Under the pieces are notes generated by a model. It did not search any database, had not been told where the DNA came from, and was given only the letters and a program-made list of their open reading frames with translations. 64,000 nucleotides of DNA, from positions 2,666,001-2,730,000 of the forward strand of contig NZ_CP146373.1 in the NCBI RefSeq assembly GCF_037055325.1, read 5' to 3'. Shown piece after piece: positions 26,480 to 64,000 of this stretch. Every line of letters begins with the position of its first letter. Positions within the stretch are counted from its first letter, which is position 1. The position numbers were made by a program, and so were the translations under genes. This DNA is from Arachnia propionica (GTDB taxonomy: Bacteria; Actinomycetota; Actinomycetes; Propionibacteriales; Propionibacteriaceae).

Positions 26480-26703
26480 TATGCTTGGGGTACCGCGTAG
26501 ATTGCCCGACGAGGGACCCGTGGTGGTGTGAGCCGCTGCGAGACCTGTGGTCGTGTCGCATCCCCTAGGGAGCGCTCGCAGGGGTTTGACTAGGTGTTTT
26601 ACCCCGTGACAACTCAACAGAGTGATGGTGCCGGGGTCTGTGGGGCGCAGCGCTCGCAGACGTTGATAAAGTCCCTTGTCAGGACCGCCTTCCGAGGCGA
26701 GCC
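26480..26703 (+). promoter_or_regulatory. CRISPR leader
   Basis: The stretch left of the first repeat lacks genes and carries two copies of AGCGCTCGCAG (26571-26581, 26649-26659), GTTTTACCCC (26596-26605), CAACAGAG (26615-26622) and CTTGTCAGGACCGCCT (26675-26690). It is called leader because repeats decay towards the right end and because the repeat 3' end ATTGAGAC resembles the usual crRNA 5' tag, so transcription runs rightwards. Confidence 0.6.
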
Positions 26704-27030
26704 ATTGTTCCGGTCTCTAAGACCGGACTTCATTGAGACCCAACTGTTCGGGACGCACCGAGAGCCTCCGCGCCAGATTGTTCCGGTCTCTAAGACCGGA
26801 CTCCATTGAGACTGCCGGCGGCGTGGAGGATCCGTTCCAGTCGTACCGCAAATTGTTCCGGTCTCTAAGACCGGACTTCATTGAGACCTCGGGGCGGCAT
26901 ATTTCATCTGCTACCTGCCGAATTGTTCCGGTCTCCAAGACCGGACTTCATTGAGACTTGACGACTTCGGCCATTCCGCGGCCAACTTCGGCGAATTGTT
27001 CCGGTCTCTAGGACCGGACTCCTTTGCGAC
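26704..27030 (+). CRISPR. CRISPR array: five 36-nt repeats, four spacers
   Basis: Repeats lie at 26704-26739, 26777-26812, 26852-26887, 26922-26957 and 26995-27030, with spacers of 37, 39, 34 and 37 nt. Each repeat begins ATTGTTCCGG, holds the hairpin CCGGTCT-CTA-AGACCGG, and ends ATTGAGAC, a type I/III-like 8-nt tag. Repeats 1 and 3 are identical; 2 and 4 have single changes; 5 is degenerate at its 3' end (CCTTTGCGAC), marking the trailer. Its A-to-G change in the stem is a tolerated G-U pair. A sixth, half-decayed copy starts at 27067, one 36-nt spacer further on. No cas gene is within 29 kb; the nearest is the minus-strand operon at 56.5-64 kb. Confidence 0.95.
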
Positions 27031-27066
27031 TCGACCAGCCCCTCCGGGCTCAGAATCCGGGGCTCT

Positions 27067-48577: not shown

Positions 48578-49363
48578 TCACATGAGGGCCTGAGCACCAG
48601 TCTTCGGCAGTCCGGCCTTGCGGGGGATCGAGGCCTCCGTGGCCTCGGCGCTTTGGGTCTCCTTCGTCGGAGTGGCGGACGTCGTCGCTTCAACGGGCTT
48701 CCGCTCCCCGCCCCTGGACGTCCTCTTCTCACCGGAGTCGGCGGCCTCGTTGGCCGAGACAGCGTTGACACCGCGGGCGTTCTCCGCGTTTTCTGCTCCT
48801 GCTCGTCCGGCTCCCCCATCGCTCACAGTCAGTCCTGCGGCCTGCGGGTCACCGTACGTTGCGAAGTTCTGGGTGGCGTACCAGCTTCCACTTCCCGCAC
48901 TGTAGGCGATTCCGATCCCCAAGGAGTCCGCATTGGGGTCGGTCATGTTGGTGTAGTGGCCCGGCGAGTTCCGCCACTGCTCGAACAGCAACGCGCCGAC
49001 GTCACCGCCGTCGCTGCGCCACGCGACGTTCTCGGAGCCTCCCTTCCAGCCCTGCGGGTAGTGGTCAGTGAAGTTCGGACGGTGCTCCATTGAATTCCGG
49101 GAGGCCATCTGCTCGGACCAGTCCTGTGCGACCGCATCCAGCTCAGCGATCCGGGTCACAGGCTTCAGCCCCAGGCCGGTTCGCAGTTCGTTGACCTTGT
49201 TCAGGATTGTCCCGGCGTACTCCGCGCCCTTGCTGTTGACGTCCGCTGGGAGAACGGCGGGCCGTTGTGAGGTCGCCTCGGCGTGAGCAGCCAAGGAGAA
49301 AAACGAAATCACAGCGGCCAGCAGCGCCACCAGAGACAGACGAGCCATCTTCATCGGCTTCAT
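48578..49363 (-). CDS. Secreted CAP-domain protein with truncated LPXTG tail
   Basis: A 261-residue protein with signal peptide (LSLVALLAAVISFFSLAAHA), a CAP/SCP domain (ILNKVNELRTGLGLKPVTR, WSEQMASRNSMEHRP, GSENVAWRSDGGDVG, NSPGHYTNM, SWYATQNFATYGDP) and a long Ala/Thr/Glu-rich linker. It ends LPKTGAQALM: a sortase signal LPKTG without the hydrophobic segment and basic tail needed for anchoring. So it is probably secreted, or was once cell-wall anchored. CAP proteins vary in role. ATG 49363 follows GAGAGGACTGCTG. It is paralogous to the genes at 52212 and 53111. Confidence 0.85.
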   Translation of the reverse strand: MKPMKMARLSLVALLAAVISFFSLAAHAEATSQRPAVLPADVNSKGAEYAGTILNKVNELRTGLGLKPVTRIAELDAVAQDWSEQMASRNSMEHRPNFTDHYPQGWKGGSENVAWRSDGGDVGALLFEQWRNSPGHYTNMTDPNADSLGIGIAYSAGSGSWYATQNFATYGDPQAAGLTVSDGGAGRAGAENAENARGVNAVSANEAADSGEKRTSRGGERKPVEATTSATPTKETQSAEATEASIPRKAGLPKTGAQALM

Positions 49364-49403
49364 CAGCAGTCCTCTCAGTTGGGGGGCAAACACCCATTCA
49401 TCC

Positions 49404-49430
49404 AATCACTTCCCTGATTTTTTTTCAGGT
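49404..49430. promoter_or_regulatory. Dyad shared by two CAP genes (site 1)
   Basis: Read on the minus strand: ACCTGA, 8 nt, TCAGG, 2 nt, AGTGATT, about 41-67 bp upstream of the CAP start at 49363. The same arrangement occurs upstream of the CAP gene at 52769. A common operator is likely. Confidence 0.45.
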
Positions 49431-53110: not shown

Positions 53111-53665
53111 TCAGGAGGCGACGAGACCAGAACCGCCCGGGTTCTTGTAGTTGGCGAAGTTCTGGGTGCCGTACCAGGACTTGGTGGACGAGTTGTAGGC
53201 CAGGCCGATGCCCAGCGCGTTCGCGTCGGGGGCGACCATGTTGGCGTAGTGGCCCGGCGACTTCTGCCACTGTTCGAAGAGTCGGGCGCCGATGTCACCG
53301 CCCCCGGAGCCGCCTCGCATGGCGACGTTCTCCGAGGCCGTGCTCCACCCTTGCGGGTATTTGCTGGAGAACTGTGGCCGATGCGACATCGAGTTCCTCG
53401 ATGCCATCTGCTGAGACCAGTCCTGGGCGATTGAGTCCAGCTGGACGTAGCGCGTCACGGGTTTCAGCCCGAGGCTGGCGCGCAGCTCATTGACCTTGAC
53501 CAGGATGGTGCGGGAGTATGCGGCACTGCTTTGCACGACCACCGCGGGGGCACCCTGCACGGCGGCCTGAGGCGCATCCGATACGGCGGAGGCCTGACTT
53601 ACCGGAGCCGCGACGAGCGGCACGACGGCCAGCAGGGCACCCGCGAACAAACGCGTCATCTTCAT
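53111..53665 (-). CDS. Secreted CAP-domain protein 3
   Basis: A 184-residue protein: signal peptide MKMTRLFAGALLAVVPLVAA, then a CAP domain with WSQQMASRNSMSHRP, SENVAMRGGSGGGDIGARLF, KSPGHYANM and SWYGTQNFANYKNP. It is nearest to CAP 2, with which it shares signal peptide and terminator. AGAGAGGACTGCTTC precedes ATG 53665. Confidence 0.9.
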   Translation of the reverse strand: MKMTRLFAGALLAVVPLVAAPVSQASAVSDAPQAAVQGAPAVVVQSSAAYSRTILVKVNELRASLGLKPVTRYVQLDSIAQDWSQQMASRNSMSHRPQFSSKYPQGWSTASENVAMRGGSGGGDIGARLFEQWQKSPGHYANMVAPDANALGIGLAYNSSTKSWYGTQNFANYKNPGGSGLVAS

Positions 53666-54190
53666 GAAGCAGTCCTCTCTTGGTGAGGGAATTTGGACCG
53701 CGGAACACTCCAGCACACGATCGCGAGCCTCGTCAGCGCTTTGGCACGACAGGCCCGGAGGTTGACAAATACGCCATCGCGGGCCATTCACCGTTTGACT
53801 GGCCCTTTTGCCCGGTCGTTGGACGCATTTGAAAATTCGTCACCCCACTCGGCTCCTCGGGCGCGTCAATAGAGACGACACCCACGCGGAATCTGTCGCA
53901 GCTCTAAAGCGATAAAACCATTTATATTTCTGATGTCGCAGGCTCATCACCGAGCAGCGGGATCACGCGAATCACCGTTGTTTCCGACCCTCGGCGCCGT
54001 CACCACTGACCAACTTCTTGGACGAAAGTGAGCTGACTCTCCGCCAGGGAGGTGCGATTCTGGGGGCTGCGGCATTCTGATGTCGTCAGGCCCGTGGCGA
54101 AGGACTTCACGTGCGCGAGATGGAGCGCCGTAACGTGGTGTTTCTCGCGTATCGAGAACACCGAGAGGCGTGATCCAAGGAGGTGATCCG
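53666..54190. other. 525-bp gap, no gene seen
   Basis: The gap contains the CAP 3 promoter and, near 53900-53935, an AT-rich patch. Frames here have poor composition and no good starts. No repeat was recognised. Confidence 0.4.
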
Positions 54191-55742: not shown

Positions 55743-56330
55743 CGCTACGGCCAGTCCTTCCTACTCATCGCGACACCTCGATCATCAACGATCACCGCGC
55801 TGTTCCCTTCTCACCCGATCTGGATACCTAGCATGTCCCAACGCCACGGCCCCGGTAGAAGCCCTCGTCACGGGCAGCTCCTGCGCTGCGGCCCGGTGCA
55901 CCCAGACGCCATCCCCTTCCGGCAATCCGTAGGTGAGCGTGGCGGGTCGTTGACATAAGGGCTCGCGGCCCCGCGATGGGATGGGTGGTGTGAGACATCC
56001 CCTCAAGCAGGGGCCACGAGCTGTGGTCAAGTCTACGTGTTCACGGTGCACGGTGGCGAGTGTGAGCACCAACTTGTCCGACTTTGACGCGATCAGCCTG
56101 CACTGATCGACGACGGATGATGGTAGAAAGCGACGAGGCCCCTCGCCGGCCACCCCGACTGCAGGGTCGCGTCACGCCCGCTATCCGCCCGGCCTCGGCA
56201 GCAGGTCAAGAACACCCACCGGACGCGGCAACACAACGCGACCACCCAAGACATCACGCCCAACTACGAAGAGCAACTTGAGGGTTCGCGGTGGTTTCAG
56301 ACCCGCCCCACATCCCTATCCTCTTGGCAC
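55743..56330. other. Gene-poor stretch between 55.7 and 56.3 kb
   Basis: No open frame here has convincing codon bias or a ribosome binding site. GC skew and composition are uneven, as in decayed mobile DNA, but I recognise no transposase motif or terminal repeats. Confidence 0.4.
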
Positions 56331-56425
56331 GCCGTCCTGACAAGCTCTGTTGCGGCGGTTTTACACACCACCACTCCTCACCCCCTCCAAGTAGCGGACA
56401 GATCCTGTCCTCAATGGGGTAAAAC
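56331..56425 (-). other. CRISPR-leader-like sequence downstream of the cas operon
   Basis: Read on the minus strand, GTTTTACCCC (56425-56416) is followed by CAACAGAGCTTGTCAGGAC (56352-56334). The leader at 26.6 kb has GTTTTACCCC, CAACAGAG and CTTGTCAGGAC in the same order. No repeat follows, so it may be a leader left by a lost array. Confidence 0.35.
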
Positions 56426-56554
56426 CCCTCGTCACGTGCCATACACACCTGAGGCTGTTTTTGGTCGTTCTCCAACACCCCTGCCTGAGGGTGTCTCCAC
56501 GATGCTGAGTCGCAGGAAGCTGGGCCTCTTTATCACGTCCTGGCTCAACCGGAT

Positions 56555-56995
56555 TTAGGAAGGGTTTTCTTCTTGTATGAATGTCACCGGGTTTTCTCCT
56601 AGCACCTCCACTGATTGCATTGTTTCGGGCCAGTGTGCTTTTTCGCCTGCGAAGTTGATTTTTAGGCGTTCGTGGTCGGGTTTCCAGGTGAGGACCTGCC
56701 GGGTTATCGTGGGCACCTCCTTTTCTTTCTTCCCGCCGCTCGGGGTTTTCCGTAGCCATCCTGCTATCACCTTGCCCGCGTCGATTCGACCGCGCAGCAG
56801 CACCTCGCCGTCGCGGCTCCAGCCCCAGATGTGGCTGTATGGGGGTGCTTTGTCGGGGCAGGGGCCGATGTGGAAGCCGTCGTAGTTGGCCCAGGCGCAG
56901 GTGAGTTCGCTCGCTTCCTCCCGCAGTTGGGACCATTCCACCTCGCCTTGTCCGGAAAGGTAGCGGGTTTCGGTGGTTCGTTTCTGCTCAGGCAT
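56555..56995 (-). CDS. csx19: Csx19-like small type III-D protein
   Basis: A 146-residue soluble protein, last gene of the cas operon, overlapping the double-Cas7 gene by 8 bp. Trp-rich and acidic: LTCAWANYDGFHIGPCPD, SHIWGWSRDGEVLLRGRIDA, then LTWKPDHERLKINFAGEKAH. Size, tail position and company (Csx10, HD-less Cas10, fused Cas7) fit Csx19 (TIGR03984), a type III-D component, but similarity is judged by memory only. If not Csx19 it is a subtype-specific small subunit of unknown role. Confidence 0.5.
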   Translation of the reverse strand: MPEQKRTTETRYLSGQGEVEWSQLREEASELTCAWANYDGFHIGPCPDKAPPYSHIWGWSRDGEVLLRGRIDAGKVIAGWLRKTPSGGKKEKEVPTITRQVLTWKPDHERLKINFAGEKAHWPETMQSVEVLGENPVTFIQEENPS

Positions 56996-58298
56996 GCTGC
57001 GTCTCCTTCTCCTCTTTCTCCTTCAGTGAGCGGTGGGTTCTTTCCAGTTCGATGTCGGCTTCGGTGATGCCCTCGATGTCCTTCAGGGTGGTGGTCATTG
57101 CGAAACGCTGGAATTCTTCGCCGAGCTTCAGCTTTTTGAACTGCACCGAACCGAGCCCCGTCGAGGTCCGGCCTCCGATTCCGAGGTATCCCTCCTGCAG
57201 GTCTCGCAGCGCCAGCAGCAGGGCCTTCAGCACCCAGGCGTGATGTTCCTCGACGTCGCGCAGTTGTCCGATCACCAGCCGCGCCTGGCAGGTCACCGTC
57301 TTTTCGGGGAAGAGTTTCTTCTCCGCCACTCCTCCGGTGAAACGGTCGATGGCGTTGCGGGTTCGTCCCGCCGGGTGGTCGGGTTTCAGTGGGGTGAAGT
57401 GGAAACTCCACCTGCCCACCCCGGTTTCTCCGGACCCGAAGACCTCGCAGACGGCGCACTTCCCGCAGCCGCGCCACTGCTGGTCCTCCGCGCCGCAGAT
57501 GTCCAGGCCGAGGCTGCGTCCGATGTATTCCACCCTTCCCCGGAGGATTCCCTTCCACCGGGTGCCGTGGAACCAGTGGTCCTCTGGTCTCAGCTGATCC
57601 TTCAGGTTTTGGGTGGGAAGGTTCAGTCCGTCGATGCGGATCGTCGCTTCCAGGAGGGTGGGTGATTCCTCGGCGGTCACCTTGTGGTCGGTGCCGCCTT
57701 GCAGCAGGGCGTCGAGGGCGTCCGGTCCGGCGTCTCGCAGTGAGACCCGGGCCAGCAGGTCGGCGGGGTGCGACAGATCCAGGGTGCGGTACGAGATGGC
57801 CGTCACCTTGGCGTGCCCGAGGCCTGTGCTGATTCCGCCTCCGATGGTGACCTGCCACTGTCCGAGTAGCTGTAGCGCCTTGGCGGGGTCGCCCTCGTGC
57901 CGCAGGTAGAGCTGGATGGTTTCGGTGTCGTAGACCTCCTCGACGTCGTGCGACCCGTGGTTGCGGGCCGCGTGACGGTTCCGGTCGACGGCGGTGGCGG
58001 TGCGGCGTCTGATCTCGGGCTGTCCTTCCTCGCCGCCGGTGAGCCGGGTGCCGAGGAACCACAGCGTAGAGGCCTGGAAGTCTGGTTTTCCGTCCTTCGT
58101 TTTCTCCTGACCCATGAGGAGTTCCCGGGCTGCCTCGTCGATGCCGGCCCGGAAGGAACCGGCCAGGCTCGACGGCGGCAACGCCGGCCTTCCGGCGTTA
58201 TCGCGCAGCGTTTCGAGCGCGGCCTGGTCCTGTCCGACCGCTCCGACGCGCCACGGTCCCAACGGGCGGATCGTCACTCGAATGTAGGTGAGAATCAT
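56988..58298 (-). CDS. Tandem double-Cas7 (RAMP) protein
   Basis: A 436-residue protein with two Cas7/Csm3-like RAMP domains. Domain 1: residues 33-52 (DNAGRPALPPSSLAGSFRAG) and Gly-rich loop 153-161 (GGGISTGLG). Domain 2: 244-256 (HGTRWKGILRGRV), cysteines 268, 278, 281 and 284 as a likely zinc site, GRTRNAIDRFTGG, and Gly-rich loop 373-383 (GIGGRTSTGLG). It resembles the Cas7-2x subunit of type III-Dv complexes, giving two backbone units that hold crRNA. Whether either has the catalytic Asp is unclear. It begins 1 bp after csx10. Confidence 0.82.
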   Translation of the reverse strand: MILTYIRVTIRPLGPWRVGAVGQDQAALETLRDNAGRPALPPSSLAGSFRAGIDEAARELLMGQEKTKDGKPDFQASTLWFLGTRLTGGEEGQPEIRRRTATAVDRNRHAARNHGSHDVEEVYDTETIQLYLRHEGDPAKALQLLGQWQVTIGGGISTGLGHAKVTAISYRTLDLSHPADLLARVSLRDAGPDALDALLQGGTDHKVTAEESPTLLEATIRIDGLNLPTQNLKDQLRPEDHWFHGTRWKGILRGRVEYIGRSLGLDICGAEDQQWRGCGKCAVCEVFGSGETGVGRWSFHFTPLKPDHPAGRTRNAIDRFTGGVAEKKLFPEKTVTCQARLVIGQLRDVEEHHAWVLKALLLALRDLQEGYLGIGGRTSTGLGSVQFKKLKLGEEFQRFAMTTTLKDIEGITEADIELERTHRSLKEKEEKETQHA

Positions 58299-58299
58299 G

Positions 58300-59496
58300 T
58301 CAGTTCCGTCCCTCTCGTAGCCTCGATGCCCACGGGTTGCGCTGCGCCTGTGGGGTGTCGCGGATCACGCGCCGGGCCGCCGCCCGCCGGCCCTCCGTCA
58401 GGTTCAGCCAGGCGCGCCTGCCCTCCAGGGTCTTGGTGTAGTCGCCCTCCCGCAGTTCCTGCAGCCAGCCCGCCACCGCCTTGCGGTCCTCTAGCGGCCA
58501 GCCGAGCATGGCGTCGAGATCCGGGGTCGCGACTCCCCCGGTGTGTTCCTCGCCGGGTTTCCCGCCGGGTGGCCGCCAGGGTGTCGTCACCTGTTCGAGC
58601 CATCCGAATCCCTCGGCCCTGCGGGTCCCGAGGCCGCGTTCCAGCAGTTTCAGCACCTTGTTCCGGTCGGGTTCCCGCAGTTTCACGACGGCCCCGGGTG
58701 CGATGGCGATGTCCCCGGGTTTCGGGGTGCCCGACGCCAGATGCCAACCGCTGATCCCCTCGCCCGCGACCCTGCCACCCCAGGCATCCACGACCTCAAA
58801 GCCCTCGAAGGTTTTCATTCCTTTCCATTCGAGGGTGGGTGCGCCGGCCTCATTCAGGCGGATCGTCGGCGACAGGGTGCGCAGCACCACATCCCCCGAT
58901 GCGGGCAGCTCGGGTGGTGGTGTCGGTTCGATCCGGATCCGGGCACGTCCCATGACGCTTCTGCGACCCCCGATGCTGGCGGATTCCAGCTCCACCAACC
59001 TCCCCACCAGATTCTCGTCGCCGTGGATCAGGCCGTGGTAGGTCTGCCGGCGACGGTGGGCCTCGCGGGAGAACAGGTTCCCGTCGAGAGCGGTGCGTTT
59101 CTCGGGGTCAATGGCGGTGGTGGTCACCACCTTCAATGCGTTCTTATCGCCCCAGATCACATCGCCCTTGAGGTGTTCTCCCACGGCATCCCCCGCATCC
59201 TCGAAGGCGCAGTCGACGTATTCGCCGTCGCCGGGGGCGTACTTGCGGCGCAGCACGGACTGGCTGGCGACGTCCCCCGTCACGGCCAGCAGGGGCCCGA
59301 ACCGCACCGAGTGGTCGAAGGTTTTCCGGAAGACAGAATCCGGGTCGCCGTACCGGATCCGCCAGGCGGTGGCCAGTGCCCCGCGCAGCGTGGAACCGGG
59401 AATGTATCCGAGGCTTGGGGTGTGGAAGGCCCGGGTGGCCCCGGTGCCGATGACGATCGCCTGTTCGCTTGTCACAGTTACCCGCCACCAGCTCAT
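58300..59496 (-). CDS. csx10: Csx10, Cas5-like RAMP of type III-D
   Basis: A 398-residue RAMP protein. N-terminal VTSEQAIVIGTGATRAFHTP followed by the RAMP helix YIPGSTLRGALATAW (31-45), a middle with NLFSREAHRRRQTYHGLIHG, and a C-terminal Gly-rich loop LERGLGTRRAEGFGWLEQ. This is the layout of Csx10, which caps the crRNA 5' tag like Cas5/Csm4. Start at 59496 overlaps the previous stop as ATGA. The C-terminal 80 residues are extra helices of unknown role. Confidence 0.8.
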   Translation of the reverse strand: MSWWRVTVTSEQAIVIGTGATRAFHTPSLGYIPGSTLRGALATAWRIRYGDPDSVFRKTFDHSVRFGPLLAVTGDVASQSVLRRKYAPGDGEYVDCAFEDAGDAVGEHLKGDVIWGDKNALKVVTTTAIDPEKRTALDGNLFSREAHRRRQTYHGLIHGDENLVGRLVELESASIGGRRSVMGRARIRIEPTPPPELPASGDVVLRTLSPTIRLNEAGAPTLEWKGMKTFEGFEVVDAWGGRVAGEGISGWHLASGTPKPGDIAIAPGAVVKLREPDRNKVLKLLERGLGTRRAEGFGWLEQVTTPWRPPGGKPGEEHTGGVATPDLDAMLGWPLEDRKAVAGWLQELREGDYTKTLEGRRAWLNLTEGRRAAARRVIRDTPQAQRNPWASRLREGRN

Positions 59497-60119
59497 GATG
59501 CGCTCCTGACCTGCTCGTTTCCGGCCTGCCCGTTCCTGGCCCGCTCGATCCTGGTGAGCATTGCCTCGATGTCGTCGGTGTCGGTGGTGATGCTCACCCA
59601 TCCCAGGCCGCGACGCCGGTCGGCGCCGATCCCATCGACCAGTCGCGCGGCGACGTGCAGCAGCGCGACGTGTGTCTCCAGCTCCTCCGGGGGCAGGGGC
59701 TGGGTCAGGGAGATCGTCGCGGTGGCCCGATCCGCGTGCAGCTCCTCCGCGAAAAGCAACGCCCCGTCCCGGGCGCGACGCCGCTCGTCGATGGCCACCC
59801 GGGAGCGCACCCGGATCCGTTCCCGAAGCTCATCCGTGTGGTCAAGTTTCCCGTCCGAGAAGTTCCACGGAGAGCTGCCGCTGCCGCGTTTCCCGAACAC
59901 GGCATCCACCAGGTGATGGTCGACGTATGTCGTGCCTCGTCGTTTTCCCGGCAGGACCATGCGGGCGGCGTCCCGCATGACGCCTTTCAGCGACGTGGCT
60001 GGCAGCGGATTCTCCTCGTCGATCACGTCGTCGACCTCCCCCTGCCCGTATCCCTGGGAGATGCGGAAGGCGGTGTTGAAACGGATGTCCAGCTCGATCG
60101 TGGTCTTGGTCGTCGTCAT
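59493..60119 (-). CDS. cas7: Cas7 (Csm3-like) backbone RAMP
   Basis: A 208-residue single-domain RAMP. Residues 29-45 (VDDVIDEENPLPATSLK) correspond to the Csm3 loop that carries the RNA-cleaving Asp followed by the xxGSSLKG helix; several Asp are candidates. Gly-rich loop GIGADRRRGLGW at 163-174. VDHHLVDAVFGKRGSGSSPW is the metal/structural region. ATG 60119 overlaps the cas10 stop as ATGA, with GAGGTGG upstream. Confidence 0.85.
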   Translation of the reverse strand: MTTTKTTIELDIRFNTAFRISQGYGQGEVDDVIDEENPLPATSLKGVMRDAARMVLPGKRRGTTYVDHHLVDAVFGKRGSGSSPWNFSDGKLDHTDELRERIRVRSRVAIDERRRARDGALLFAEELHADRATATISLTQPLPPEELETHVALLHVAARLVDGIGADRRRGLGWVSITTDTDDIEAMLTRIERARNGQAGNEQVRSAS

Positions 60120-61630
60120 GCGTACCACCTCATGATGTTCAGTACCGTCAAGAGTTCCTCGGTGCCCTGGTTCGTGGCCCGCTCCCAGTTCCTTCCGAAC
60201 ACCGCGTCCAGGAGGTCCGCGGCCCCGGACAGCCTGCTGGCCCGGTGTCTCAGGTGCAGGGTACGGTCCTTCTCGTCCCTGATCCGTAGTTCCTGGCGCA
60301 GGGTGGCGCGCGCCGCGTTGCCGCGTTCGTCGTCGCCGAGCCGACGCGCCAGGTCTCGCAGTTCCTCAATCCGCCCCCAGTCATCGAGGGTGCGGAATCG
60401 TCTCGACGGTGTGGGGCCCTCGTTGGTGACATCCAGCCAGGCGAATGACCAGTCGTTGCCCCTCACCGCTTCCTTGGCGGTGCGCAGCAAGGTGGTGGCC
60501 AGTTCCACCTGGTCGCCGATGGGGTAGGCGAGTTTGCAGATCACCATGCCCGCGGAGAAGCTGACCTTCCCCGCCCCCAGCCCGAAGGTGTCGCTGCCCG
60601 CTTCCTGTTCCAGGTGTTTCAGGAATGTGGTTAGGAAGGGCCATGCCTTGGTGGCGGGCACGGTCACCAGCACGTCGTCGCCGCCGAGGATGTGCGGGAC
60701 GGCGGGCATGGGGTTCGCCGCGGCGCCCCGGTCGTCTGTGATCTCCTCGATGGCTTTGCGCAGCGCCAGTTTCGTGGCGTCCTTGACGGCCTTGGACACC
60801 CTCCGCAACTCCTGCAGACCGTCCTCCGAATCCGCAGCAGCCGCCCTCAGCTCCCGGAACAGCTTCCCGAAGCCGTTGCCGTCGGCGAAGATGGTGGCGA
60901 CGTGGTTACCGGTGTGGGTGCGCGACCCCTCGGAGCCGAGATCACCGAGCCGCGCCAACTCCTTGAAATGCTCCACCTGTGTGAGATGTCCGAATTTCTC
61001 CTGCTTCCGGAGCTCGCGAAGCATGACCTGCTCCACCATGAATCCCTGCTGGACCCCGCCCAGCAGGGACCAGTTCAGGAGCCTGTTGCGGCCCTTCCGC
61101 GGAGCACGGGAGGCGCAGTCGCCGCACAGCCGCGTCGTCTCGTCCCCCACCGAGGTTTCCTCCGAGGCCATACCCGAGGAGCATTCGTCGCAGTGATGGG
61201 CCAGGGGAAACTCGATCATCGACGGCGGGTACTGCCTGGTTTCGGCAGGAATGTCGTCGTCCTCGGCGCGGATGACATCGCCGTACCCGGCAACCTCCCG
61301 GAAGGTGGTGTGGACGTGTGCGGCGGGCAGGTGCAGTTTGATGTTGAGCGCGAGGGCCTCGGCGGCTTTGCGGACCTCGCCAGGATCCTCGCCCCGGATG
61401 TTCAGCACCGAGTCGACGTCAACGGCGTCATCGTTGACCGTCACCCCGGGGAAACCCTGCAGGATCTCCCCCGCGGTCTCGAAACTGCGTTCCTCGATGC
61501 AGTCGGCGGCCCCGCTGGTGTCGGTGAGGTAGGCCAGCATGTCGGAGGCGCCGCGGCGTCCCCACAGGCGGCGGGACCGGGCGAGATACCCCTGGATTTG
61601 ACTGACCCCGATGGATGCGAAACACGTCAT
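60116..61630 (-). CDS. cas10: Cas10, HD-less, with intact GGDD
   Basis: A 504-residue Cas10. It begins directly with the first palm-like domain (ASIGVSQIQGYLARSRRLWG), without an N-terminal HD nuclease. A zinc finger uses Cys147/150/169/172 (HHCDECS and RLCGDCAS). The second palm has FADGNGFGKLF (248-258) and GGDD at 316-319 (HILGGDDVLVTV), so cyclic-oligoadenylate synthesis is expected, while DNase activity is not. The C-terminal helical domain ends LLTVLNIMRWYA. ATG 61630 follows AAAGGACCGGAG; a GTG at 61645 is possible. Confidence 0.92.
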   Translation of the reverse strand: MTCFASIGVSQIQGYLARSRRLWGRRGASDMLAYLTDTSGAADCIEERSFETAGEILQGFPGVTVNDDAVDVDSVLNIRGEDPGEVRKAAEALALNIKLHLPAAHVHTTFREVAGYGDVIRAEDDDIPAETRQYPPSMIEFPLAHHCDECSSGMASEETSVGDETTRLCGDCASRAPRKGRNRLLNWSLLGGVQQGFMVEQVMLRELRKQEKFGHLTQVEHFKELARLGDLGSEGSRTHTGNHVATIFADGNGFGKLFRELRAAAADSEDGLQELRRVSKAVKDATKLALRKAIEEITDDRGAAANPMPAVPHILGGDDVLVTVPATKAWPFLTTFLKHLEQEAGSDTFGLGAGKVSFSAGMVICKLAYPIGDQVELATTLLRTAKEAVRGNDWSFAWLDVTNEGPTPSRRFRTLDDWGRIEELRDLARRLGDDERGNAARATLRQELRIRDEKDRTLHLRHRASRLSGAADLLDAVFGRNWERATNQGTEELLTVLNIMRWYA

Positions 61631-61641
61631 CTCCGGTCCTT

Positions 61642-64000
61642 TCACTTCTCGTTGCTCATGTACTGGATCGGGTCGTCGATCCTGGGAAGGGTGCGCATCC
61701 TGATCTGGTTGTTCTTGCCTCCGGAGAACTCGGCGTAGTACTTGAAGCTCTTGTCGAACTCCTTCTGCTCCGCCTCGCTGCCCCGCCGTGTGAAGTTGCC
61801 CATGGTCGGGTACCAGATGCGATCAGCGGGGACGCTGCTGGTGCCGAGCGCCCTGACGAGTCCGGTGATCCACGGCGCCTCCGGGTCGATGACCTGCATG
61901 GCGGCGCTGCACGGATCCACCTCCACCGTCCCTGCACCTGCCCGGTACCTGCCCGCGGCGTCCTGGATGCAAGTATCGGTGATGCGACCGACGGCGGTGC
62001 CGAAACCCAGGCCCTTGCCGCCACCGAGGTGGATGGCAAGGTCACCTTTGACGGTGATACCGGCACGTTCTGCGAGTTCCTGGGGTTCCAGCGCGAACAT
62101 GAGGAACCCGAGCTGGCAGGCGTCGATGTTCTCGAAGTGGATCCGTCCCTTCAGGACGGGGGTTCCCTCGGTGATCCAGCGCCTGGTCTCCTGGCAGTCG
62201 GGGGCGCCTTCCTTCGGGTAGTGAGCACGACGCACCTGGCGGGGCGTGAGGCTCGTGCCCTCGGGCTCCTGGCCGTGCCAGTAGAACTTGCGGCCAGCGA
62301 TCCTCCGCATCCCGGAGCGGCTCCGCAGACCGCCCCAGTGGGACGCCGGTTTCCCTCGCTCGGCCACACCCGCCTCCCGGTTCTCACCCTCCGCTGTGGG
62401 GTGTTCCAGGTAGAACGCCCCGGCGCTCGGGCGCGGGGAACGGGTCGGCGGGGGCAGCACCAGCCGCAGCGACACCGGCGCGTCGGTTTCGAAGGCCCCG
62501 AACCGCAGATGGGAGGCGTAGGCGTTGTGTTCCGCCTGGTCGCCTCGCTGACCCTCGGTGCGGGCCTCGATGAAACCGAAGGTCGCGCAGGCCGGGCACA
62601 GCTCATCCGGATCTCGGCACGGCAGCAGGGACTCGTCGGGAAGCCGCTCGCGGATCGGGCCCTCCCCGAGCTTCCGCCAGCTCGACGACATCGTGAGCCC
62701 GGTGACCACACTCTCGCCACCCTTGCTCATGGTGATCCACACCGAATCGCCCGGGGCCAGGGCGCCGTCGCTCCTGCGTCGTTTCCCGATCGTGGTGCCG
62801 TTCTTGTGCTTGACCAGCACCTCCGGCCAGTCCTTTGCATCCCATGCGGGCGCCTTGGGGGCGAGCTCACCGCCGGTGACGTCCACCGAGCGCCTGCACA
62901 GCTCCCGGTAGCCCTCCCAGGTCCTCTCGCCCAGCCTGACCGGGGTGGTTTCGAGTTTCCCCGCGGCCACATAGATGTGGTCGGCGGGATGGCTGCTCTT
63001 CGCCCCGGCGTCGGCGACGTGCACCACCCAGTCGCCGCCCTTCGTGAGCGTGGATTCCCCCTTTGATGTGAGCTGGTCACGAGTTACCTGGTTCGCTTCG
63101 TTACCGAAGTTCACTTTGTTACCGCAGCTACGCGGACAGGTGCATTTTTTATCAAAATCATCAAAGGAGATCCGCACCCCGGAGCGCAGCCCCTCCGCCC
63201 CGCCGAACAGGCGCCACAGCGCCTTGGCTCGGATCCACACCACCTTGCTGGTGGGCAGTACCGAGATCACTTTCCCGTCGGAATCGACCTCGTCCACCAC
63301 AGCCAACTGTTTTTCGAGGTGCATGCCCAGGTGTTCTCGATGCACTGGTAGGTAGTCGGGGTCGAGTATGGACAGGCAGCTGCTGCTGATCACCTCGAAC
63401 AGCGACCGGACGGCGCCTCGCACGGAGGATCCCGGCACGGTGACGCATTCCTCGATCCGGGTGTCGGTGGCGGTTTTCCAGTCCACCGGCATCATGAGCG
63501 GGGAACGGAAAGCGAACTCCACATCGAGATATCCGGTCAGCCCGCCCTCGACGGCATTCGCGTGGCCGCGGGGTTTGTCCCGTTTCACTGTGTCGGGCAG
63601 CGGAACGAAGGTGTAGGGATTGATGAAGGCGTTTCCACCATCGTGGAACTCGTCCAGTCTCTCCTGAATCTTTCGCTCTTTTTTTCTCGGCCTCTCTGCG
63701 CTCCTTTTTGGCCTTTCTGCATTGGCTCTCCTCCGTGGCTGCCTTGACCCAGGCTCGTACACCCTCTTTGCCCCAGCACAACCGCTCCGGATCGGTCCCC
63801 AGGATCTCGAATTCGCGCCCGTAGGCCATGTCGCGGAGGCTTTGCGTCCACTCTTTCCCCTTGGGTATCTCCAGTTCGCGTTCCCGGATCCGGCGTTTCT
63901 TGTTGGGTTTCGCGATGTCCACGGAGATCCGTTCACCGAGCTGACACATCTCGAGCGATTCGCCTTTGACGATATCGACCAGGCGGTAATACCCCGGATT
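61642..64000 (-). CDS. Large RAMP protein (TIGR03986-like), frameshifted and incomplete
   Basis: The 5' end lies beyond 64000. Upstream of 63685 the frame reads YYRLVDIVKGESLEMCQLGE, EIPKGKEWTQSLRDMAYGRE and a Lys/Glu-rich stretch; downstream a different frame (one base on) carries NPYTFVPLPDTVKR, VPGSSVRGAVRSLFEVI, cysteines CTCPRSCG and CPACATFG, and Gly-rich loop HLGGGKGLGFGTAVG. The frames meet in a run of seven A (63679-63685). Six A would join them as one protein of more than 870 residues. No start codon lies just after the run, so two separate genes are unlikely. The RAMP part matches the TIGR03986 family of type III systems (Cas7 with large insertion). Confidence 0.78.
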   Translation of the reverse strand, partial: IRGITAWSISSKANRSRCVSSVNGSPWTSRNPTRNAGSGNANWRYPRGKSGRKASATWPTGANSRSWGPIRSGCAGAKRVYEPGSRQPRRRANAERPKRSAERPRKKERKIQERLDEFHDGGNAFINPYTFVPLPDTVKRDKPRGHANAVEGGLTGYLDVEFAFRSPLMMPVDWKTATDTRIEECVTVPGSSVRGAVRSLFEVISSSCLSILDPDYLPVHREHLGMHLEKQLAVVDEVDSDGKVISVLPTSKVVWIRAKALWRLFGGAEGLRSGVRISFDDFDKKCTCPRSCGNKVNFGNEANQVTRDQLTSKGESTLTKGGDWVVHVADAGAKSSHPADHIYVAAGKLETTPVRLGERTWEGYRELCRRSVDVTGGELAPKAPAWDAKDWPEVLVKHKNGTTIGKRRRSDGALAPGDSVWITMSKGGESVVTGLTMSSSWRKLGEGPIRERLPDESLLPCRDPDELCPACATFGFIEARTEGQRGDQAEHNAYASHLRFGAFETDAPVSLRLVLPPPTRSPRPSAGAFYLEHPTAEGENREAGVAERGKPASHWGGLRSRSGMRRIAGRKFYWHGQEPEGTSLTPRQVRRAHYPKEGAPDCQETRRWITEGTPVLKGRIHFENIDACQLGFLMFALEPQELAERAGITVKGDLAIHLGGGKGLGFGTAVGRITDTCIQDAAGRYRAGAGTVEVDPCSAAMQVIDPEAPWITGLVRALGTSSVPADRIWYPTMGNFTRRGSEAEQKEFDKSFKYYAEFSGGKNNQIRMRTLPRIDDPIQYMSNEK
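63679..63685 (-). other. A7 homopolymer at the frame change
   Basis: Seven T on the plus strand (A7 on the coding strand) sit exactly where the reading frame changes in the large RAMP gene. The context is GCCGAG-A7-GAGCG. Candidates are an assembly indel, a slippage-switchable tract, or transcriptional slippage. Confidence 0.85.

Follow-up and report, generated by a model that had tools for sequence, protein, structure and literature searches.

The DNA analysed here, referred to as the window, is a stretch of 64,000 nucleotides from Arachnia propionica taken from a genome assembled as one contig of 3.31 Mb (bases 2666001-2730000). An operon on the minus strand crosses its right end and is described with extended coordinates that run on beyond 64000 (genome position = coordinate + 2666000; the numbering of locus L005 is the extended coordinate minus 52000). 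In the order of transcription, this operon encodes a TIR-SAVED-Crn4 protein, Cas6, a large TIGR03986 Cas7 with an N-terminal domain, an HD-less Cas10 with a GGDD motif, a single Cas7, Csx10, a double Cas7 and Cas11. The features are as follows:

65099-66916 (extended coordinates, beyond the window), minus strand: TIR-SAVED-Crn4 effector
64149-65183 (extended coordinates, beyond the window), minus strand: cas6
63686-64000, minus strand: N-terminal domain of the large Cas7, its GTG start lying outside the window, at 64156 in extended coordinates (codon-position GC; continuous with the Cas7 reading frame in two related species)
63679-63685, minus strand: A7 tract (T7 on the plus strand), point of frame change from the N-terminal domain to the Cas7 core
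61642-63678, minus strand: core of the large Cas7, TIGR03986 family (NCBIfam TIGR03986)
60116-61645, minus strand: cas10, 509 aa, LGGDDV, without HD domain
59493-60128, minus strand: single cas7 (PADLOC Csm3, 2.9e-30)
58300-59505, minus strand: csx10 (Cas5), probable true extent (PADLOC Cas5_IIId, 8.9e-15; RAMPs match at 58957-59457)
56988-58298, minus strand: double Cas7, 436 aa (PADLOC Cas7_IIId, 1.7e-30; two RAMPs domains in one frame)
56555-56995, minus strand: cas11, small subunit, 146 aa (PADLOC Cas11, 3.5e-14)
56303-56530, minus strand: conserved leader that belonged to the III-D array, now lost (about 85% identity to the leaders of L021 and L023)
56277-56302, minus strand: remnant of the first III-D repeat, GTCTGAAACCACCGCGAACC, divergent beyond

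All the proteins encoded within 56555-64000 match type III profiles, and the genes, their order from the large RAMP to the small last protein, and their tight packing, with junctions that overlap or abut, are those of the original prediction. The codon-position GC tracks each operon frame in turn. In a genome-wide search, matches to the RAMPs profile were confined to this operon, two of them lying separately in the double Cas7 (57144-57575 and 57813-58274). The large Cas7 frame (801 aa) scores 165.7 bits against TIGR03986 (cut-off 161.35); at the level of profiles, both the large RAMP and the fusion of two Cas7 units, as originally proposed, are supported. Cas10 matches PADLOC (3.7e-45) and Pfam Cas10-Cmr2_palm2 (43.8 bits, cut-off 27), and its relatives, with 92-94% identity, are found in genomes of the same genus, including [Pseudopropionibacterium] massiliense NZ_LR027842. 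The product of csx10 matches NCBIfam TIGR02674 with an E-value of 4.2e-10, although its 39.4 bits are far under the cut-off of 177.3; the coding signal of this gene (codon-position GC) begins near 59505, and the listed ATG at 59601 is probably too early. Since dN/dS is 0.12-0.46 in every operon gene, these genes appear to have been under constraint until recently.

According to these profiles, the operon is a genuine type III-D CRISPR system, as predicted, rather than a member of an ordinary III-A or III-B branch; it is ordinary in kind, and its identity is well supported by the sequence. It encodes the Csx10 variant of Cas5, a Cas10 with a GGDD palm and without the HD domain that is usually missing in this subtype, and, given the frame break in its gene, a large Cas7 of the TIGR03986 type. 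The small protein had been proposed to be Csx19-like, an identity that was dropped because it matches Cas11, while PADLOC and NCBIfam searches returned no Csx19 match. As Csx19 is often present in III-D but optional, membership in this subtype stands without it.

A resemblance to type III-Dv had also been put forward, and a bolder reading would make the operon a III-Dv system and a direct intermediate toward the single-protein effectors of type III-E. The profiles do identify both a double Cas7 and a large Cas7 of the insertion type (the insertion domain being judged from sequence), and among PDB entries Cas10 is best matched by a III-Dv Cas10 (8s9t_C, 6.6e-9); nevertheless, the similarity to III-Dv chains is weak, Csx19 is unmatched, and the Cas7-Cas5-Cas11 fusion of III-Dv is missing, its parts being encoded by three separate genes. 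The III-Dv label was dropped on account of this missing fusion, and the intermediate reading is considered very unlikely. The closeness to III-E that had been suggested stands only in part: the gRAMP profile matches the double and the large Cas7 at about 2e-11, which also speaks for the bolder reading, but this kinship is weak and common to III-D generally, and a single gRAMP effector without Cas10 is not what the operon encodes, since Cas10 and separate subunits are present. Compared with the III-Dv complex of Synechocystis PCC 6803 (PDB 8s9t, PMC11026444), the Arachnia operon shares a GGDD Cas10, a double Cas7 and a large TIGR03986-family Cas7 extended by an additional domain at the N-terminus. 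In contrast, it carries Cas7, Csx10 and Cas11 as separate genes and no matched Csx19, and the first half of its double Cas7 aligns without the catalytic Asp.

This last difference bears on the cutting of RNA. The single Cas7 holds an Asp that aligns with the catalytic D26 of the III-Dv Cas7-Cas5-Cas11 protein, but the first half of the double Cas7 shows no Asp at the corresponding place, either in this locus or in most related loci, for which reason this half may be unable to cut RNA. Cas10, as had been proposed, holds LGGDDV and no HD motif, which agrees with the rarity of HD domains (3%) reported for III-D Cas10s (PMC11229360). The original prediction of a signalling rather than a DNA-cutting complex is supported, and the expected effector, TIR-SAVED-Crn4, is encoded just outside the window. 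Sequence beyond 64 kb, where further CRISPR genes had been anticipated, indeed contains cas6 and this effector directly upstream, but Cas1 appears only at other loci.

The effector is a protein of 605 aa, the residues 4-462 of which match TIR-SAVED (PADLOC, 4.5e-107); the protein also matches the solved TIR-SAVED 7qqk (4.6e-29), and both domains are present. A conserved Glu in its TIR domain aligns with E84 of 7qqk, which we take to be the catalytic Glu. Residues 474-586 match the ring nuclease Crn4b (9r7b, 7.1e-15), and alignments against the residues named in PMC12830947 show that the Crn4 His (NLTPHDV) and Arg (EVR) are kept; a His and an Arg have been demonstrated to be essential in Crn4a. 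According to the same study, Crn4a cuts cA3, cA4 and cA6, and Crn4b cuts cA3 and cA4 only. As Crn4b cuts both, we infer that the messenger would be cA3 or cA4. The TIR-SAVED of CBASS is a cA3-activated NADase that is protective when placed in a type III system, and CRISPR-specific TIR-SAVED proteins have been suggested to sense cA4 instead (PMC11229360).

As output, the operon is predicted to deploy a TIR NADase that is gated by SAVED and made self-limiting by its built-in Crn4 off-switch. When intact, the system would bind foreign RNA with a complex guided by crRNA and composed of Cas10, Csx10, Cas11 and four Cas7 units (the single one, the two fused ones and the large one). Once bound to the target, the HD-less Cas10 would make cyclic oligoadenylate, whose binding to SAVED would lead the TIR domains to assemble and destroy NAD+, until the fused Crn4 cuts the messenger and ends the response. 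Both the NADase activity and its switching-off by Crn4 are deduced from the domains and residues described above.

TIR-SAVED proteins were first known from CBASS (PMC11229360), and it could be argued that this effector is a CRISPR-independent, CBASS-type protein fired by another cyclase, its proximity to the cas genes being coincidental. This is highly improbable, given that the effector gene overlaps cas6 within one operon and that its relatives in many genomes adjoin the Cas10 of two type III subtypes. The CBASS protein 7qqk, which shares the TIR and SAVED domains and the conserved Glu, is a 433-aa chain without Crn4 from a system other than type III CRISPR. A parallel in design is the Csx1-Crn2 fusion (PMC12409355), in which a messenger-activated effector is also joined to a ring nuclease; in that case, an RNase is combined with Crn2, whereas the Arachnia protein is predicted to combine a TIR NADase with Crn4.

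The TIR-SAVED-Crn4 architecture itself is already known, because Chi et al. (2025; PMC12830947) reported one such fusion, in a type III locus, with the same domain order, the C-terminal Crn4 and a type III CRISPR neighbourhood. The Arachnia protein does not differ from it in kind, but the fusion recurs in 12 Propionibacteriaceae genomes and also beside III-B genes. A Crn4 profile (PADLOC Unk_01) was searched in 198 genomes of the family and, separately, in 396 genomes drawn from the phylum, both sets including the genome under study; it matched in 21 of the 198 and in 3 of the 396. Reading of the frames revealed 14 TIR-SAVED-Crn4 proteins in 12 genomes, the Arachnia one included (G000, G002, G004, G005 with two, G008, G009, G015 with two, G023, G034, G125, G127 and G129). 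A Cas10 relative lies close by at 11 of these loci besides the one described here, and two others, on short contigs, have other III-D genes. The neighbours in G034 are Cmr2, Cmr3, Cmr4 and Cmr6, that is, III-B genes, and the Cas10s of G009 and G023 are about as distant as that of G034. At the level of sequence, the protein families, the catalytic residues, the effector fusion and its recurrence beside Cas10 can be regarded as established.

In a tree of Crn4 domains, 13 fused domains grouped together with support of 90/94, which falls below the 95/80 mark, with one G015 copy outside, and on this grouping one main fusion event is likely but unproven. The number of Crn4 domains varies: a second locus of G004 encodes a TIR-SAVED without Crn4, and in G127 and G129 (L034 and L035) each TIR-SAVED carries two copies, the second of which keeps the His and the Arg. 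The first copy is without the Arg in both genomes and without the His in G129. It was also observed that the second domain at these two loci comes from another Crn4 branch. Since proteins with zero, one and two Crn4 domains occur naturally, the consequences of attaching a ring nuclease to a toxic effector can be tested directly, and a fusion published from one locus can now be followed across a bacterial family, in which it accompanies two type III subtypes.

The large Cas7 gene is interrupted by a change of frame. The N-terminal domain begins at the GTG mentioned above, the Cas7 core lies one frame on, and the A7 tract is located at the hinge, whereas in L021 and L023 the domain and the core form one open frame. 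This tract, one of only two A/T runs of at least seven in the window, sits in a stretch 22 bases longer than in relatives. As no stop of the first frame was found close to the break, re-initiation appears unlikely, and the cause could be a mutation, a sequencing error or slippage. The break is seen in a single assembly at a homopolymer site, and if it were a sequencing error, the complex may be intact. The N-terminal domain is divergent (52% identity), yet its dN/dS is 0.35-0.39. It had no Pfam or PDB match above chance, and a single-sequence AlphaFold2 model of the domain from L021 reached a mean pLDDT of 32.7, too low to be of use.

The downstream end of the operon is also altered. In the relatives, the sequence after cas11 comprises a leader and an array, then RT-Cas1, cas2 and more repeats; of all this, the Arachnia copy retains only the leader and some 26 nt belonging to the first repeat. 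A genome-wide search found no full III-D repeat anywhere, and Cas1 is encoded only at a I-E locus and a I-G-like locus, 111-122 kb off. With the array and adaptation genes lost and the large Cas7 out of frame, neither of which formed part of the original prediction, the operon is probably impaired in this genome. Effector complexes can draw crRNAs from other arrays, so that the loss of the array alone is no proof of inactivity.

Candidate donors are five repeats within the window (26703-27031), the last of them degenerate, and three more at L006:4636-4902, all with the same repeat and the same leader. The latter three adjoin a Csb2 fragment and a Cas4/Cas1 fusion, the remnant of a type I-G system. 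This I-G-type fusion (L006:5362-6708, minus strand, next to the truncated Csb2) is probably dead, because Cas1 profile positions 62-217 are missing in frame. Any supply of guides from these eight repeats to the III-D complex is speculative. For three spacers of the array within the window, viral_contigs contained no exact 24-base match. The strain probably keeps its main CRISPR memory in an array of type I-E style with about 120 repeats (L006:7840 to ~15150).

It is conceivable, though we regard it as doubtful, that the operon is fully functional, the frame change being a sequencing error or bridged by slippage on A7 (or by +1 frameshifting at AAA AAA AGA), with crRNAs provided in trans by the eight repeats. 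Every other gene is intact with dN/dS below 0.5, the A7 lies exactly at the break, AGA is the rarest Arg codon in the operon genes (4%), and the other arrays of the genome include repeats whose end, ATTGAGAC, differs by one base from the ATTGAAAC end of III-D repeats. Nonetheless, the A7 tract is missing from the two nearest relatives and is not a conserved slippage site, and the hairpin of the surviving repeats differs from that of the repeat found by the III-D operon in relatives. A more elaborate version, in which A7 would be a reversible switch (phase variation or slippage) setting the amount of complete complex, with guides from the I-G-like arrays and with TIR-SAVED-Crn4 keeping leaky signalling harmless, strikes us as scarcely credible. 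We hold with good confidence to the reading of a III-D complex with a self-limiting TIR-SAVED-Crn4 output that is probably impaired in this genome.

A search of titles and abstracts for Arachnia and CRISPR returned no paper on these systems. The operon links a III-D complex of the actinobacteria, as yet little studied, to a named predicted output, an NADase with its own off-switch, and illustrates how a signalling CRISPR system can be dismantled. Two other III-D loci of the same genus show frame breaks, L027 (G015) in cas10 and L025 (G010) in a further TIR-SAVED-Crn4 gene split by the change, hinting that the III-D systems of the genus decay often. The RT-Cas1-Cas2 genes of relatives (L023:15130-17058 and L024:15110-17038) lack about positions 70-178 of Cas1 and, in both species, change frame at that point, which curiously mirrors the Cas4/Cas1 deletion in the Arachnia genome. 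Elsewhere in the window, CAP-domain genes (cysteine-rich secretory family) at 48578-49405 and 53111-53791 lie among 70-80% identical repeats at 48.8-53.7 kb and probably form a cluster of paralogues.
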